Origin: an uncultured Actinomycetes bacterium
GTDB taxonomy: Bacteria; Actinomycetota; Acidimicrobiia; Acidimicrobiales; RAAP-2
Assembly (NCBI GenBank): GCA_903828785.1
Contig: CAIKNP010000019.1
Span: 1-64,000, forward strand
Direction: 5' to 3'
Length of the DNA: 64,000 nt
The position numbers and the translations under genes were made by a program. This document shows positions 29,386 through 64,000 of the stretch, piece by piece; positions within the stretch are counted from its first letter, which is position 1, and each line of letters starts with the position of its first letter. The notes under the pieces were generated by a model, which ran no database searches, was not told the origin of the DNA, and saw nothing but the letters and a program-made list of their open reading frames with translations.

Positions 29386-29891
29386 ATTTGCACCGCCGGA
29401 TAGCGACGTTCCACGCGCTCAATAATGAAGTACGTCATGGCGAGCGCCAGGGCGTCAGCGGCGTCAGCCGGACGAGGAACTTCGGTCAAACCGCACAGTC
29501 GAGCCACCATGGCCTGCACTTGGGGCTTCTTAGCCGCTCCGTAGCCGGTCACCGCCATTTTTACTTGTTGCGCGGTGAACTGGCGCACCGGAATGCCCAA
29601 GGAAGCGGCCAGTCCGACGGCGATACCACTCGCCTGAGCGACCGGAATAGCGGTATTGGCATTCTTTTGAAAAAACACTTTCTCAACGACAACGGCGTCG
29701 GGCGAAAAATCATCGAGCAGGGACGCCATCTCGCGGTGCAGGTGCCCAAGTCGCAACTCAGTGGCATCTTGGTGGGGAGATTCAATCACGCCAGCGCGCA
29801 CCGCACGGAAACTTTCGGGCTGGTCAAAACTTCCCTCAACCAGTCCGAAGCCACATCGGGTCAAACCCGGATCGATACCTAATACGAACAT
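29382..29891 (-). CDS. ruvC: Holliday junction resolvase RuvC
   Basis: RuvC cuts Holliday junctions symmetrically. The 169-residue RNase H-fold protein has the four acidic residues in their usual contexts: GIDPGLTRCG, VVVEKVFF, and the paired aspartates in ADAADALALA. Its ATG at 29891 lies within a 14-bp palindromic LexA box, and a TAGTAT hexamer ends seven bases before it, so the messenger is probably leaderless and directly repressed by LexA. It leads ruvA and ruvB. Confidence 0.95.
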   Translation of the reverse strand: MFVLGIDPGLTRCGFGLVEGSFDQPESFRAVRAGVIESPHQDATELRLGHLHREMASLLDDFSPDAVVVEKVFFQKNANTAIPVAQASGIAVGLAASLGIPVRQFTAQQVKMAVTGYGAAKKPQVQAMVARLCGLTEVPRPADAADALALAMTYFIIERVERRYPAVQM

Positions 29892-29898
29892 ATGTTCG
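29885..29898. promoter_or_regulatory. LexA (SOS) box across the ruvC start codon
   Basis: CGAACATATGTTCG is a perfect 14-bp palindrome matching the CGAAC-N4-GTTCG box bound by LexA in actinobacteria and Bacillus. The ruvC ATG lies inside it and the -10-like TAGTAT (29904-29899) abuts it, so a bound repressor would cover the transcription start. Confidence 0.85.
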
Positions 29899-38296: not shown

Positions 38297-39418
38297 CTAC
38301 AGCGTAATGCCGAGCAACGCGGCCGCGGGGCCGATGTTGAAACCGCCGTACGCGGCAGCGTCGACCATGGCCAGCGCCTCGGGCGTATTGACATCTTCGT
38401 CCAGCGCGGCGCGCACCTCGTCCAAAATCGAACTCGAACGCCCACTCAGCAGCGAACTGCGCCAAGTGGCCAAGCGTGACTGCGACTGCGCCAGGAGTTC
38501 ACCACGCCACTCCCAATCGCTGCGGTAGTGCTGCGATAGGAGGGCCAGTCGCACGGCCGCGGGTTCCGACTCTTCGGCCAGTTCAGCAACGAATTTCAAA
38601 TTACCGAGGGATTTGGACATCTTGGTTCCGTCGAGCCCCACCAGGCCAACGTGCATCCACGTCTTTACGAAGGGCTGGCCCGTTGCGGTTTCGCTCTGGG
38701 CCGCTTCGCAGTCGTGATGGGGATAGGCCAAATCACGGCCACCACCGTGGATGTCGAGGGTGGCACCCAAGTCGCGCATCGCGAGCGCTGAACACTCAAT
38801 GTGCCAACCTGGACGACCGGCGCCCCAGCGCGAATCCCAGGAAGGTTCATCCTCGAGTGACGGTTGCCAAAGCACGAAATCGAGACCATCGCGTTTTCGA
38901 GGATCAGTCGGATTGCCTCCGTGTTCCGCCGCGAGGGCGAGCATGGTGGAACGGTCCGCGTGGCTGACCTGGCCCAGGCGAGGAAAAGTCGAGGCTTCGA
39001 AGTACACCCAGCCGTCAACTTCGTAGGCGGAACCGGCTTCGAACAGTTGGTCAACCAGGGTCAAAATTTCTGGAATGGCACCGGTCGCCCGAGGCTCGCT
39101 GTACACCGGTAAGAGGTTGATGAGTTGCATGTCGCGATCGAACTTGGCCATCTCGCGCGCCGAGAGGTCGAGGTAATTCACATTCAGCGATCGCGCTTTA
39201 CGTAGAAGGTCGTCATCGACATCAGTGACGTTGCGCACGCATCGGGTCTCGAAACCCGCGTCGCGCAGCCGCCGCTGCACCACGTCAAAGGCCAGGTAGA
39301 CGAAGGCGTGCCCGAGGTGAGCGGAGTCGTAGGGGGTAATGCCACACGAGTACATCGTCACTACCGACTCGGTATCGAGATCAAAGACTCCCCGTCGAGC
39401 GGTGTCAAAAAGACGCAT
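38297..39418 (-). CDS. mshC: Mycothiol ligase MshC (cysteine:GlcN-Ins ligase)
   Basis: MshC joins cysteine to GlcN-Ins, the third chemical step after GlcNAc-Ins formation and deacetylation. It is a shortened cysteinyl-tRNA synthetase relative. The 373 residues, against about 460 for CysS, lack the tRNA-binding end. The first block is SCGITPYDSAHLGHAFVYLAF, with GITPYD rather than the GVTVYD of CysS; the HLGH signature, zinc ligands (Cys25, the GWHIECS cysteine and PHHDCE) and KMSKS are present. mshD, an mshB-like gene and a mycothiol-using oxidoreductase homologue in the same window support MshC. It starts within the npdG stop (TGATG). Confidence 0.88.
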   Translation of the reverse strand: MRLFDTARRGVFDLDTESVVTMYSCGITPYDSAHLGHAFVYLAFDVVQRRLRDAGFETRCVRNVTDVDDDLLRKARSLNVNYLDLSAREMAKFDRDMQLINLLPVYSEPRATGAIPEILTLVDQLFEAGSAYEVDGWVYFEASTFPRLGQVSHADRSTMLALAAEHGGNPTDPRKRDGLDFVLWQPSLEDEPSWDSRWGAGRPGWHIECSALAMRDLGATLDIHGGGRDLAYPHHDCEAAQSETATGQPFVKTWMHVGLVGLDGTKMSKSLGNLKFVAELAEESEPAAVRLALLSQHYRSDWEWRGELLAQSQSRLATWRSSLLSGRSSSILDEVRAALDEDVNTPEALAMVDAAAYGGFNIGPAAALLGITL

Positions 39419-40068
39419 CAGGCACCCATACCCGCGAGCTTGACGTAGGAGTGTGCTTTGTGGCGAATGTTAATTGAAATACACACCGACGTGAAGGCTT
39501 CCACCGCGCTGGCGAGGGACATGGACCCCGCCACGATTGACCGCAGTCCGGGCATTTCGTTAACCACGTCAGCCACCATTTGACGAGCATCGGCGTCGTC
39601 ACCGAAGATCACAACATCGGCGTCCAGTCCCGAATCAAGATTCTGCATTTGCGCCGCCGGGAGGTGGTGAAAAGCGCCCACCACGTGGCTCGCCGGCAGG
39701 GCGAAGGCGATCTGGGCCGCCATCGAACCGCGAGGTGGGTACAGAGCTATCAACTCCCTTCCCTCGCGCGTGAGTGCGTTCACCATTGAAATCACCGTCT
39801 TTCCCTGCAGGACTTCGCGAAAGGCAGTGACGGTCGCCACAGCCGAATCCCATGGCGTCGCCACGACGATCAGGTCAGCCGCGGCGGCTTCTTCGTTACT
39901 TCCGCCGTTCACCTGGCCCACGCCCCGAGGGGCGAGTGAGCTGGCAATGTCGCGCGCCCGATCACCGTCTCGCGAGCCAATAGTGACCTGATAGCCCGCT
40001 GACGCTAAGCGAAGAGCAACTCCCTGTCCCGCGGGACCAGTTCCTCCGAGAATTCCAATGGTGGTCAT
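39418..40068 (-). CDS. npdG: F420-dependent NADP oxidoreductase (NpdG/Fno)
   Basis: This 216-residue Rossmann protein swaps hydride between coenzyme F420 and NADP. It has the N-terminal dinucleotide motif GILGGTGPAGQGVALRLA, the NADP-phosphate site GSRDGDRA, and the conserved VVATPWDS and HLPA blocks of the family. It implies F420 use in the cell, as is common in actinobacteria. The ATG at 40068 has AAAGGA five bases upstream. It overlaps mshC by one base and is divergent from fabI by 40 bp. Confidence 0.9.
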   Translation of the reverse strand: MTTIGILGGTGPAGQGVALRLASAGYQVTIGSRDGDRARDIASSLAPRGVGQVNGGSNEEAAAADLIVVATPWDSAVATVTAFREVLQGKTVISMVNALTREGRELIALYPPRGSMAAQIAFALPASHVVGAFHHLPAAQMQNLDSGLDADVVIFGDDADARQMVADVVNEMPGLRSIVAGSMSLASAVEAFTSVCISINIRHKAHSYVKLAGMGA

Positions 40069-59263: not shown

Positions 59264-60304
59264 GTGAAACAAAAATTTGTTGCCGGCCTTATTGGCGTCG
59301 TCGCGGTTGCCACTTGCTTCACGAGTGCCGCCTTGGCATCTACTCCACAAGTAGTGACAGCTAAGGCAGTGCTGTTCAGCAATCCTTCCAAGCACCGCCC
59401 CCTTATGCGGATCATTTTTCCACAGGCCGTGAAGGCCAGCGCCTTGCCCGAACTTCAGACCACACCGGCGCTCACCACCAAGTGGGTCCAGTTGTCCGCC
59501 AATGTGGTTGAGGCCTTCATCACCGGGGCAATGCCTTCCCCCTTCGGCTATTCGGTAAACGTTCCCGCTAGCTACCAATGCGCTTCCGGTGGGTGCACCT
59601 TGAATGCCTCGACACCCCAGCTGACCACGCAGCACTACACGCTCCCGTGGGCTGCTCAACTCTTGGCCGAGTTGAAGTACCTCCCCCTCGCATTTGTCCC
59701 AACGGTCGTTTCGTCCAACCCAGCGGTGTGGGTGCCCGGCCACTTCGTGTGGAAGTATTCGCTACTCACCTCCACCCTGCAATCACAATGGAGTACCACT
59801 CGGCCCTCGGTGGTCCTCACCGGTGCCGTCATGAACTTCCAAAATACCCTCGGCCTGCCCGTAACGGGGGTGGTCGATCCTCCAACGTGGACGGCCCTCC
59901 TGTCGGCTGCTTTGCACCATAAATACGATCCCGTGGCGTATAACTACGTGCGAGTTTCCCAGGCAGTTCCCGAGACTCTGACCCTCTACATCGCTGGTCG
60001 CCCGGTGTACAAGAGCCTCGTGAATACCGGCATTCCTGGGGCCACCACGGCTCCAGGCACTTACCCCGTCTACCTGCGCTACGTGACGACAACCATGAGG
60101 GGGACAAACCCCAACGGCACGCCGTACAACGACACCGGCATTCCATGGGTCTCGTACTTCAATGGCGGTGACGCTCTTCACGGCTTCATCCGCTCTTCCT
60201 ACGGAACTCCCCAGAGTCTCGGCTGCGTGGAGATGCCCTTCGCCAATGCGGGCAAAGTTTGGCCACACACCCCGCTGGGGACGCTCGTAACTATTCTTCC
60301 CTAG
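59264..60304 (+). CDS. Secreted L,D-transpeptidase with peptidoglycan-binding domain
   Basis: This 346-residue exported enzyme has a signal peptide (KQKFVAGLIGVVAVATCFTSAALAS), an unassigned domain with a possible disulphide (YQCASGGCTL), a PG-binding_1 domain near 205-235 (MNFQNTLGLPVTGVVDPPTW) and a YkuD domain at the end with His306 and Cys321 in LHGFIRSSYGTPQSLGCVEM. It would make 3-3 crosslinks between stem peptides or attach proteins. The GTG start follows TAGAGT by seven bases; a longer frame upstream lacks a signal at its start. Its end overlaps dinB by 14 bp. Confidence 0.9.
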   Translation: MKQKFVAGLIGVVAVATCFTSAALASTPQVVTAKAVLFSNPSKHRPLMRIIFPQAVKASALPELQTTPALTTKWVQLSANVVEAFITGAMPSPFGYSVNVPASYQCASGGCTLNASTPQLTTQHYTLPWAAQLLAELKYLPLAFVPTVVSSNPAVWVPGHFVWKYSLLTSTLQSQWSTTRPSVVLTGAVMNFQNTLGLPVTGVVDPPTWTALLSAALHHKYDPVAYNYVRVSQAVPETLTLYIAGRPVYKSLVNTGIPGATTAPGTYPVYLRYVTTTMRGTNPNGTPYNDTGIPWVSYFNGGDALHGFIRSSYGTPQSLGCVEMPFANAGKVWPHTPLGTLVTILP

Positions 60305-61625
60305 CGTCGGGCCCAAAGGCGTGCCGACCACGTTGAACCGCTACGTCAACTATGCCGAAGCGCAATTCACTCGCGAGCCCCACCGCGTCAACACCGTAGC
60401 GCTGGCGAATTTCGTCGAGCGTGTCTCGTAGGGCTTCGTTGGCAACTTGCTGACTACGAGACGCTTCCACCGCCCCCGAACGACCAGTGCTGTCGTCGTC
60501 CATTCCGAAACTCAATTGCACTTCATTACGGTCACGCTCCACAAAAGAAGAGAGGTGCAGGGCCAGCAGTCGAACGGGCAAGACCAGGTTGACACTTTCG
60601 AGCAACGCCATCCCCACCGCCGCGATCGCCCCCTCGGCGTCTATGCCAAAGGGTAAAGACTGAGAACGCTGCACCATGGACAAATCGTCAAAACGAACAC
60701 CGATAGTCACCGTGCGAGCAACCTGCCCTCGGCCCCGTAGGGCGCGAGCAACGACACCGGCGTGGTGCAAGACTTTGGGGCGAAGGGCCTCGAGACCCAC
60801 GAGAGACTGCCCAAAGGTCTGGTCGTGCCCCAGTGATTTCATGGCGCGCTGCACGACGACGTCTCCCAAGTCCTCCCCTTGAGCGTACGAAGTCAACATT
60901 GCGGCCATGGCCGGACCGAAGTGATGCGCCAGCGTCGCCTGGTCAACCCCGAGGAGGTCTCGCACCATTCGCAGACCGAGTTGATTGAGGCGTTTCGCCG
61001 TTGCGGGACCCACCCCCCAAAGTGCGCGTACCGGTAGTTCGTTCAGCCACTGCTGTTCGAGCGCGGGACTGACCCACACCACCCCGGCGCCAGCCAGCAG
61101 TTTGCCGTTCACCACGTTCGGCTTGGACTCCTTCGACGCCAACTTGGCGAAGAGTTTATTTCGAGCAACCCCGATCCCCGAATCCAAACGCAACTCGTCC
61201 ATCAGTCGCTGACGCAGGTTTCGGGCCGCCTGCAAAGGTCGCACCCCCAAGGAGGAGAGTCCTCGAAGGTCGGCGAAGACCTCGTCGAGGCTGATGGGTT
61301 CAAAGAGCGGGGTCACGTCATTCACAATCTGGTGAAACTTCGCCGAGTACTCTTCGTAACGGTCGAATCGCCCCGGCAGCACGACTAGGGCGGGACACAG
61401 CCGCTTGGCGGTGACGGTGGGCATGGCGGACCGAACCCCGAATCGACGAGCTTCGTAGCTCGCCGAGGCGATCACACCGCGCTCGCCCGCCCCACCCACA
61501 CACACTGGTCGACCCCGTAATGAAGGATCGTCGAGAATCTCAACCGAAGCGAAGAAGGCGTCGAGATCAACGTGAAGAAGGGGGGCCTCGTCTATTGAGG
61601 GGTCGTCAGAATGCGAATTCGACAC
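60291..61625 (-). CDS. dinB: DNA polymerase IV
   Basis: This 444-residue Y-family polymerase copies past lesions. Palm motifs are complete: Asp20 in HVDLDAFFASVE and Asp114-Glu115 in SLDEVF; the thumb has GVGPATAKRLNQLG, and a little-finger domain follows. The C-terminal 60 residues lack an obvious clamp-binding LF motif. I use GTG 61625, which overlaps the deacetylase gene by 20 bp; a start at 61652 is also open. It is last in a minus-strand run headed by two LexA boxes, which fits SOS induction. Confidence 0.92.
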   Translation of the reverse strand: MSNSHSDDPSIDEAPLLHVDLDAFFASVEILDDPSLRGRPVCVGGAGERGVIASASYEARRFGVRSAMPTVTAKRLCPALVVLPGRFDRYEEYSAKFHQIVNDVTPLFEPISLDEVFADLRGLSSLGVRPLQAARNLRQRLMDELRLDSGIGVARNKLFAKLASKESKPNVVNGKLLAGAGVVWVSPALEQQWLNELPVRALWGVGPATAKRLNQLGLRMVRDLLGVDQATLAHHFGPAMAAMLTSYAQGEDLGDVVVQRAMKSLGHDQTFGQSLVGLEALRPKVLHHAGVVARALRGRGQVARTVTIGVRFDDLSMVQRSQSLPFGIDAEGAIAAVGMALLESVNLVLPVRLLALHLSSFVERDRNEVQLSFGMDDDSTGRSGAVEASRSQQVANEALRDTLDEIRQRYGVDAVGLASELRFGIVDVAVQRGRHAFGPDAREE

Positions 61626-62313
61626 AGCGAAACGATTCCGCAAACGCCACACCGACGGGTCTACCGGCCTGGGCGGCCCGCGAACGCACCATCTGAGCTA
61701 TACCCTCAGCGTCTTCGCCCACTTGCGAACGATGGGCGAGGACGGCCGCAATCTTTGATTCGATAGCACTGCCAATATCAATAGCCACATCGGGCTCGTG
61801 CGTTCCGGTCAACAGCAATGTCGCCACCGGGTGCGCCTCACCGGCCGAAGGAAAATACAGCGGCATCGCTGCAGCGGGTGCCACTGAGTCAAGCAGAGCC
61901 CAACCCGTCTCACGATGATCTCGGTGGTTCACGTAGACACCGCCGAAGAAAGTGGCCGTGGGGTCCGGTCCTAAGACCACTTCAGCCTTCGCAGCGCGGA
62001 TAATAGAAACGAGTATCTCCCGGAGGTCTTCGGAGTTAGAAATCTCGCCATCGGGAAATCCTAATTCGTGCACTTTCGATACTCCAAGCAGGGCCGCCGC
62101 CTGCGTCAACTCGGCACTACGAATAGCCGCGATGTCACCCTCGACGATTTGATTGATACGAGTACCTTTGGCACCGTCACAGACAACCACCAGGTGAACC
62201 TCTGACCCGCTCGCCGCCCATTGAGCCAGACACCCGCCCGCCGCGACGTCGGCGTCATCAGGGTGGGCGTAGACGGCTACGACACTGGCGGGACGATACG
62301 ACGCTAGGCGCAC
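61606..62313 (-). CDS. PIG-L family zinc deacetylase, MshB/Mca-like
   Basis: This 235-residue LmbE-type deacetylase has the metal motif AHPDD at residues 16-20 and the second pair in NHRDHRETG. In actinobacteria such enzymes include MshB, which deacetylates GlcNAc-Ins for mycothiol, and Mca, which cleaves mycothiol conjugates. It is shorter than MshB (about 300 residues), so the name is open. It lies 2 bp after nrdR and overlaps dinB. Confidence 0.85.
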   Translation of the reverse strand: MRLASYRPASVVAVYAHPDDADVAAGGCLAQWAASGSEVHLVVVCDGAKGTRINQIVEGDIAAIRSAELTQAAALLGVSKVHELGFPDGEISNSEDLREILVSIIRAAKAEVVLGPDPTATFFGGVYVNHRDHRETGWALLDSVAPAAAMPLYFPSAGEAHPVATLLLTGTHEPDVAIDIGSAIESKIAAVLAHRSQVGEDAEGIAQMVRSRAAQAGRPVGVAFAESFRCVEFAF

Positions 62314-62315
62314 GA

Positions 62316-62786
62316 TTAGCTGCGCAACTTCGGTGCGGTCGTTTTGATCAACATGCCAAGCTCCTTGGCGAAATCATTGGCCTCGGCAAATCCCTTGTAC
62401 ACCGAGGCGAAACGAACATAGGCCACGTCGTCGACCGTGCGAAGCGCCTCGAGCGCCGCCACGCCAATCTCTTCACTCGTTACGTCGCGATTTAGCAAGC
62501 GCATTGATTCTTCAATCTTCTCCACCATGGCGGACATCACTTCTTCGTCAACCGGCCGGTTCTTGCAAGCGCTGCGCACGCCTTTAAGAATTTTGGACCT
62601 ATTGAATGGCTCGCGATCGCCGGAACGTTTCACCACGTTCAGCACAACTTCCTCAATGCGTTCAAAGGTGGTGTATCGCTGCGAACAGGCTGAGCACTCC
62701 CTTCGGCGCCGAATGGCGACGCCATCTTCGGCAACTCGGGAATCGACGACGCGGTCGTCATCGGTGGAACAAAAGGGGCACCGCAC
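62316..62786 (-). CDS. nrdR: Ribonucleotide reductase repressor NrdR
   Basis: NrdR represses nrd genes according to ATP/dATP levels. The 156-residue protein has the zinc ribbon with Cys3, Cys6, Cys31 and Cys34 (RCPFCSTDD and RECSACSQRY) and an ATP-cone from about residue 49. In mycobacteria it lies behind the lexA-divergent LysM gene; here too it follows a LysM gene, by 30 bp. No nrd genes are in this window. Confidence 0.95.
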   Translation of the reverse strand: MRCPFCSTDDDRVVDSRVAEDGVAIRRRRECSACSQRYTTFERIEEVVLNVVKRSGDREPFNRSKILKGVRSACKNRPVDEEVMSAMVEKIEESMRLLNRDVTSEEIGVAALEALRTVDDVAYVRFASVYKGFAEANDFAKELGMLIKTTAPKLRS

Positions 62787-62816
62787 GAGCCCACGTTACT
62801 CCAAATACGGAATTTT

Positions 62817-63254
62817 TCAGGGAATTAAAATGTGTTCACCGGTCAGCACGACACTCGAACGGATTTGTGAACGCAAAACGACGAAGGCTCGGTGAGGGTT
62901 TAGTGGATTGACTTTCTCGGCGATGCTGCTCAGCGTGTCACCAGCCTGCACGACATAGACCTGTCCGGGCGCAAGTTGGCTGCCGGTTTCCATCTGAATA
63001 GGCAATCCAGTAGCTGTCGTACCGCCAAAAGCGTGACCGGGACCGCACAGTGCCGTGATCGTAGCGAGAATCGCTACGACGAGCACTACTCGTCGTCGGC
63101 GCTTCAGCATGGCTGCTCGCGCTGCTCGACGTTGCTGGACCAGTGGTCCTGAACGGAAGGTACGAAGCTCGGGAGCCGGCTGAGGAACCAGTCGCAAGTC
63201 TGGTCGACGAGGTGCGTCGAACTCGAAGTCATGGTGTAGTTCGGTAACTGCCAT
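62817..63254 (-). CDS. SOS-controlled LysM membrane protein (ChiZ/YneA-like)
   Basis: This 145-residue protein has a cytoplasmic start of about 50 residues, one membrane helix (55-72) and an external LysM domain at 99-144 (VYVVQAGDTLSSIAEKVN). The same architecture and position upstream of nrdR are found in the mycobacterial cell-division inhibitor ChiZ and in Bacillus YneA. AAGGAG lies six to eight bases before ATG 63254. Two LexA boxes overlap its promoter, so it should be induced by DNA damage and delay division. Confidence 0.85.
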   Translation of the reverse strand: MAVTELHHDFEFDAPRRPDLRLVPQPAPELRTFRSGPLVQQRRAARAAMLKRRRRVVLVVAILATITALCGPGHAFGGTTATGLPIQMETGSQLAPGQVYVVQAGDTLSSIAEKVNPLNPHRAFVVLRSQIRSSVVLTGEHILIP

Positions 63255-63273
63255 TTGGTGCTCCTTCATCTAT

Positions 63274-63287
63274 CGAACATCTGTTCG
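63274..63287. promoter_or_regulatory. LexA box 2 of the LysM gene
   Basis: CGAACATCTGTTCG matches CGAAC-N4-GTTCG. It starts just downstream of the -10, over the transcription start. Its reverse complement is identical to the other box 24 bp away. Confidence 0.85.
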
Positions 63288-63289
63288 TA

Positions 63290-63318
63290 ATTATAAACGA
63301 ACAGATGTTCGTATGCAA
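63290..63318 (-). promoter_or_regulatory. SOS promoter of the LysM gene
   Basis: On the minus strand TTGCAT (63318-63313) and a consensus TATAAT (63295-63290) are 17 bp apart. LexA box 1 fills the spacer. Transcription would start near 63283, giving a leader of about 30 bases. Confidence 0.85.
63298..63311. promoter_or_regulatory. LexA box 1 of the LysM gene
   Basis: CGAACAGATGTTCG matches the SOS box and occupies the spacer between -35 and -10, so LexA binding excludes RNA polymerase. Confidence 0.85.
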
Positions 63319-63326
63319 ATAAACTT

Positions 63327-64000
63327 CTAAGAGCCCTGAATCTCCAGTAATTTCCGCCCAACTCGACCAAAGTCATTGGCTGGGCCAGAGAATCCCTGCA
63401 GACCTCGAGCTACATCTTCAACACTTCGCACCAAACGGATCCGGTGGCGACGAACCTTCTGGGCACAGGCTAGAGAGAGGGTGTCACAGGGATGATCGTG
63501 CGAGTCAGTCACTTGTCCGTCAGTTACCCAAACAATGGGCTCGCCATTGCGTCGCAGTGAGCACGCCCAGTCCAAGGCGGGACCGTCCACGCCGTTTCCC
63601 ACGTTGCCACTGGGGATACTGGGTACGACCCCCCGACCATCGGCAAGGACCCAGGCGTTTGGCGTTTGGCCCAGATCCCCAGGACGATGGCTGTAGCCCA
63701 GAATCACCGCATCGGGAGCGACTTTTAAGAGCGATGTGAGAGCCTCTGGTGCGATATCCATGGAGCCGGATTGATCAATCAAGACGACGCCTCCACCCAC
63801 TCGACGCCTATTGCTGAAGGCCCGCTGTAGGGGGTCCGTCAGCAATCGAGATGGGTAGCGCAGTGCGACCCCGGTGGAGGCTGGCCTCGTCCCTCGCCGC
63901 AGCGGTCGTCGCCGCACTGTGAGGTCCTGGTCTCCGACGGACACGAGCAGTGGAGCAAATCGCATGGTCGGTGCGCGTCTGCTTCCGGGGGCCAGGCTTC
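63327..64000 (-). CDS. von Willebrand factor A domain protein, 5' end outside window
   Basis: The frame is open to the window edge, so the start is uncertain; an ATG at 63965 would give 212 residues, but related proteins are longer. It contains a MIDAS metal site, LIDQSGSMD, with later VWA blocks (GNGVDGPALDWA and IVWVTDGQVT). The segment before the VWA part is arginine-rich. VWA proteins bind partners through a divalent metal, often with an AAA+ ATPase; none is in view. It ends 73 bp before the LysM gene. Confidence 0.7.
   Translation of the reverse strand, partial: SLAPGSRRAPTMRFAPLLVSVGDQDLTVRRRPLRRGTRPASTGVALRYPSRLLTDPLQRAFSNRRRVGGGVVLIDQSGSMDIAPEALTSLLKVAPDAVILGYSHRPGDLGQTPNAWVLADGRGVVPSIPSGNVGNGVDGPALDWACSLRRNGEPIVWVTDGQVTDSHDHPCDTLSLACAQKVRRHRIRLVRSVEDVARGLQGFSGPANDFGRVGRKLLEIQGS

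Follow-up and report, generated by a model that had tools for sequence, protein, structure and literature searches.

A 64,000-nucleotide (nt) stretch of DNA from an uncultured bacterium of the order Acidimicrobiales (contig CAIKNP010000019.1, positions 1 to 64,000; hereafter the window) contains four consecutive minus-strand genes, encoding a LysM protein, NrdR, a PIG-L family enzyme and DinB, behind a promoter with twin LexA boxes. The question raised by this locus is whether the four genes form a single SOS operon under LexA, as a first-pass annotation of the sequence had proposed. We consider that they form one LexA-repressed SOS operon with a probability of roughly 0.85; the proposal is strongly supported by the distribution of LexA boxes over the whole genome and by conservation in the genus and the order. 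That LexA binds here, that the genes are co-transcribed and induced by damage, and what each protein does are predictions from the sequence; control of all four genes by the SOS response is likely. The features of the unit are as follows, in window coordinates (the prefix C19 marks positions that continue beyond the window on the same contig).

63290–63318, minus strand: promoter, TTGCAT (63318–63313), 17-nt spacer, TATAAT (63295–63290)
63298–63311: LexA box 1, CGAACATCTGTTCG as read on the minus strand, within the −35/−10 spacer; perfect and conserved in the genus
63274–63287: LexA box 2, CGAACAGATGTTCG as read on the minus strand, covering the expected transcription start; perfect
62817–63254, minus strand: LysM gene; Arg-rich N terminus, one transmembrane helix, C-terminal LysM, ChiZ/YneA-like topology
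62316–62786, minus strand: nrdR, repressor of ribonucleotide reductase genes (TIGR00244, 170 bits, cut-off 124.65)
61606–62313, minus strand: PIG-L/LmbE-type zinc deacetylase gene (PF02585, 89 bits, cut-off 28.2)
60291–61625, minus strand: dinB, Y-family DNA polymerase IV (PRK02406, 271.5 bits, cut-off 256)

The coordinates bear out the arrangement that had been described, with gaps of 30 nt between LysM and nrdR and 2 nt between nrdR and PIG-L, and an overlap of dinB with PIG-L; the promoter, with one LexA box in its spacer and a second over the start, was also correctly described in coordinates, strand and spacing. The LysM gene most likely starts at the ATG at 63254 rather than at 63269, because AAGGAG precedes the former and relatives align to it. 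The most likely start of dinB is the GTG at 61625, which overlaps PIG-L by 20 nt (the mechanical start of the open reading frame (ORF) is at 61652). When the region 60000–63500 was scanned for sigma-70-like promoters, the TTGCAT-17-TATAAT promoter was the single match and none was found inside the four-gene unit, whereas terminators inside the unit, including between LysM and nrdR, occurred at chance level only. The scans thus gave neither a separate promoter nor, beyond chance, a terminator between LysM and nrdR, as the first-pass annotation required, and this argues for one LexA-controlled operon.

We searched the whole genome, of 1.56 megabases, for the 10-base box core CGAACN4GTTCG and found 10 sites, compared with one for the reversed control pattern. 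Six of the 10 have the stricter form CGAACANNTGTTCG, and all six are located at SOS-type promoters; the other four lack this form. Two of the six are the twin boxes ahead of LysM, and the remaining sites are as follows.

C7:48436: box at recA
Window 29885–29898: perfect box overlapping the start of ruvC, the head of ruvCAB
C19:65500–65513: box at lexA
C23:73665–73678: box in the region shared by imuA'-imuB-dnaE2 and a divergent SRAP/HMCES-like gene

The names recA, ruv, imu and SRAP were read from translated ORFs and not from model scores. On this distribution a chance origin of the boxes is excluded, and they are read as real LexA operators. A search of the window with two mismatches allowed gave 54 boxes against 54.7 expected, which is pure background; therefore, exact boxes alone were used. 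The genome encodes a LexA of the CGAAC-box type, and the promoter-overlapping operator is conserved in relatives. The remark that lexA is missing from its expected place proved wrong: the gene was found 1.5 kilobases (kb) beyond the end of the window, at a distance of 2.2 kb from the twin boxes, behind a pair of AAA and VWA genes. The position of all six sites at SOS-type promoters and the short distance to lexA argue for LexA control of the operon.

Within the genus, twin perfect boxes precede LysM in all 22 genomes that yielded an nrdR; in these genomes the nrdR–PIG-L gap is −1 to 3 nt, PIG-L and dinB overlap, and gene order and coupling are kept wherever the contig is long enough. The search of related genomes for the gene order that the first-pass annotation had called for was made as a wider scan with a PIG-L alignment, which gave 80 loci, most of them labelled as metagenome genomes of Acidimicrobiaceae or actinobacteria, from sites such as bog, permafrost and lakes; nrdR-PIG-L-dinB is kept in 80/80 of these loci, the set sharing some contigs with, and not being independent of, the 22 genomes. 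Two perfect boxes 22–26 bp apart stand next to nrdR in 77/80 loci. The contig covers the promoter in 79 loci, 78 of which have two perfect boxes, while one (L118) has a perfect box and a box with a single mismatch; in L108, the contig begins inside nrdR. Even in L128, where LysM and nrdR are split by a 3.4-kb ORF, twin perfect boxes are kept on the far side of it. The insert (L128:2989–6405) encodes 1138 amino acids, probably a secreted subtilase-like protein. In L088 and L126, the dinB match is in two parts, possibly through frameshifts or assembly errors.

The perfect boxes of the relatives are concentrated at this promoter, with 155 in 27 kb of the LysM promoter slot compared with 6 in 909 kb elsewhere, and 20 further perfect boxes are found at the lexA/AAA promoter. 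The −35 and −10 hexamers are in register with the double boxes of 84 relatives, and the spacer is 17 nt in 72/84. Because the distance between the two boxes varies over 22–26 bp, about half a helical turn, we infer that two LexA dimers would bind independently, and not as one rigid cooperative complex. The arrangement recurs across the order outside the genus, in the form lexA, boxes, LysM-nrdR, often pfkA, and PIG-L-dinB. In the other families, lexA and LysM-nrdR are transcribed divergently, with one or more perfect boxes between them in 24/31 loci, and 36 boxes were found in the 26 kb between lexA and nrdR compared with none in the other 460 kb. The conservation of the gaps and overlap, the gene order, the boxes and the hexamers argues for a LexA-controlled operon, as does the concentration of boxes in the LysM promoter slot and, in other families, in the lexA–nrdR interval. 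A PIG-L orthologue was present in 61 of the 118 genomes sampled across the order; in 24 genomes, which represent 11 families, a same-strand dinB follows downstream within 300 bp, and in 43 it follows within 8 kb. The orthologue is rare outside the order; in one genome from another order of the class, dinB lies about 0.9 kb downstream.

Between the operon and lexA lie two minus-strand genes, which read away from the divergent lexA.

Window 63327–64000, continuing to C19:64661, minus strand: VWA-like gene, no Pfam hit
C19:64658–65374, minus strand: AAA_5 ATPase gene
C19:65513–66163, plus strand: lexA (TIGR00498, 183 bits, cut-off 110.95, at C19:65534–66157), with S24 peptidase and LexA DNA-binding domains

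The locus corresponds to the lexA neighbourhood known from actinobacteria, into which a gene pair has been inserted. This AAA-VWA insertion is absent from the other genus of the family (L179) and appears to be specific to the genus of the window. A perfect box and, about 41 bp from it, a box of GTTTG type lie in the divergent lexA/AAA promoter region and are kept in relatives, and the AAA_5 and VWA-like genes, judged by these boxes, may be SOS-controlled too. A short motif like AACGGTCGG also recurs between lexA and the AAA gene, immediately ahead of the AAA start, in L024, L026, L039, L040 and L011.

We weighed the possibility that the SOS response covers just LysM and nrdR, as in mycobacteria, and that PIG-L and dinB lie downstream for historical reasons and are expressed mainly from an internal promoter. 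Several observations favor this possibility over a single four-gene unit. Other families have PIG-L-dinB kilobases from nrdR, in several of them with pfkA and more genes in between, and no box is located near PIG-L; therefore, PIG-L and dinB need not follow LexA in those families. In addition, eight genomes have a PIG-L orthologue and no DinB hit, and LysM, nrdR or PIG-L could contain promoters of a type that a sigma-70 scan misses. However, the tight gaps and the overlap in 22/22 genomes of the genus, the unbroken order in all 80 loci and the lack of a sigma-70-like internal promoter speak for co-expression of all four genes, and dinB is often an SOS gene, for example dinP in Streptomyces venezuelae (PMC9380542). 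We accordingly regard an SOS role confined to LysM and nrdR as rather unlikely. A constitutive operon, with twin boxes that serve only lexA autoregulation or chromosome structure, is highly improbable. The lexA gene is indeed nearby, and divergent in most relatives, but it has boxes of its own (C19:65500–65513 and 65458–65471), and the twin boxes lie exactly over the −35/−10 region and start of LysM and remain when lexA is kilobases away. L065, L098 and L099 lack the AAA-VWA pair and have a livKHMGF-type operon between lexA and the cluster, yet the twin boxes of LysM are still present, which argues that these boxes serve the operon and not only lexA.

The least certain step in this reading concerns the substrate of the third gene's product. 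The metal motifs AHPDD and NHRDH of the PIG-L protein are intact, with H17, D19, D20, H130 and H133 invariant, and its AlphaFold2 model is good (predicted local distance difference test score, pLDDT, 90.5). The nearest solved structures are diacetylchitobiose deacetylases of Pyrococcus and LnmX (Z near 31 over 228 residues), followed by BshB (Z 27.6) and MshB (Z 23), a ranking of folds that does not settle the substrate. The deacetylases (8bgn, 3wl4, 3we7) and LnmX (5bmo) share the PIG-L fold over the whole chain at about 28–33% identity with the metal motifs kept, but they belong to chitin or natural-product metabolism, whereas the gene studied here is placed in a predicted DNA-damage operon. 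The first-pass annotation had called the gene mshB/mca-like and expected SOS to alter thiol metabolism, which would make PIG-L a mycothiol enzyme, MshB or Mca. Its membership of the PIG-L family fits this idea, and MshC-like (415 bits) and MshA-like (328 bits) genes in the genome make a mycothiol-like thiol possible. However, the protein scored 37.8 bits with the MshB model (TIGR03445, cut-off 224) and 43.4 bits with the Mca model (TIGR03446, cut-off 277), two other genes of the genome scored 175 and 139 bits for MshB over the full length, and MshB is far below the chitobiose deacetylases and LnmX among the solved relatives. The BshB1 (TIGR04001) and BshB2 (TIGR04000) models gave 92 and 62 bits against cut-offs of 182.5 and 195. 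The mycothiol role was rejected on the MshB and Mca scores and the better-fitting genes elsewhere in the genome; an SOS effect on thiols through PIG-L is unlikely, and both the label and the thiol step are left unsupported.

The MshC-like ligase gene is located in the window (38351–39448), and its 415 bits are below the cut-off of 485 and above its cysS score. Together, the MshC-like, MshA-like and two MshB-like genes suggest that this genome specifies a mycothiol-like thiol. A search of the MshC family across the order was rejected as a test for mycothiol makers; cysS matched everywhere, the cut-off was never passed and there was no separation. Because the PIG-L protein shows no leader, we infer that it is probably a cytoplasmic zinc deacetylase with an N-acetylhexosamine-type substrate. 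More tentatively, and with the odds somewhat against it, PIG-L might be a new SOS effector: an N-acetylhexosamine deacetylase, induced through LexA, that helps the cell to survive damage together with DinB or the LysM protein and whose link to dinB predates the divergence of the order's families.

The LysM protein has one hydrophobic stretch near residue 60 and the motif YVVQ.GDT, and has the layout of ChiZ and YneA, being a small, single-pass membrane protein with a C-terminal LysM. The Pfam LysM score is marginal in the window protein (20.7 bits against a cut-off of 20.9); a match at E ≤ 0.01 was obtained for 6 of 10 members and is clear in some relatives. A role as a division inhibitor is plausible by analogy of topology, promoter and position. 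NrdR passes its equivalog model and has both the zinc ribbon and ATP-cone Pfam domains. NrdR acts as a repressor in a manner that depends on the nucleotides bound to it; therefore, its induction need not raise deoxyribonucleoside triphosphates and does not reveal the direction of any change in them. DinB, the sole DinB match at E ≤ 1e-30 in the genome, has the Y-family domains and invariant catalytic acidic residues D29, D123 and E124. The dinB gene converges with a plus-strand YkuD L,D-transpeptidase gene, and the ORF ends overlap by 14 bp (window 60291–60304).

Under LexA control of all four genes, one LexA dimer in the −35/−10 spacer and a second over the start site would block the sigma-70-type promoter. 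DNA damage would lead to RecA-triggered self-cleavage of LexA, which would free the promoter and give one message for the four genes. The single-pass LysM protein would then most likely delay septation as ChiZ and YneA do, NrdR would adjust ribonucleotide reductase expression, DinB would carry out lesion bypass, and PIG-L, as a cytoplasmic zinc deacetylase, would probably act on an N-acetylhexosamine-type compound.

This organization resembles that of Mycobacterium tuberculosis, in which the Rv2719c (chiZ)-nrdR-Rv2717c operon has been reported to be LexA-controlled (PMC4181829), a further reason to read the present genes in the same way. In the lexA/chiZ-nrdR operon, a membrane LysM protein likewise comes first and nrdR second, but the third gene is Rv2717c; in the present unit the genes after nrdR are PIG-L and dinB, and an AAA-VWA pair separates lexA from the operon. 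Inhibition of division after damage has been published for ChiZ and YneA (PMC13396833, PMC3989709). YneA of Bacillus subtilis, an SOS-induced single-pass protein with an extracellular LysM domain, blocks division (PMC13396833) and has a similar topology to the present protein, in which the LysM match is marginal. In Streptomyces, LexA control of ruvC-ruvA, dnaE2 and dinP has been reported; the S. venezuelae motif is tCGAAC-N4-GNNCGa, and the DinB-type dinP is under LexA (PMC9380542). There, dinP is listed with dnaE2, whereas here dinB closes the nrdR operon and dnaE2 belongs to a unit of its own, imuA'-imuB-dnaE2. A literature search limited to open-licence papers found no paper that connects PIG-L with LexA and none that describes an SOS regulon in acidimicrobia. 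LexA control of LysM-nrdR has a reported precedent in M. tuberculosis, whereas the PIG-L-dinB tail, the depth of conservation and the AAA-VWA insertion seem to be undescribed in that literature.

These results extend the idea of the mycobacterial lexA/chiZ-nrdR operon to a deep, mostly uncultured actinobacterial order, a lineage of soil and freshwater, and a conserved uncharacterised enzyme joins the likely SOS genes. Since many genomes are available in the order, the linkage gives a clear, testable prediction. If PIG-L aids damage survival, the SOS response would include small-molecule or cell-envelope deacetylation, which is outside current models.

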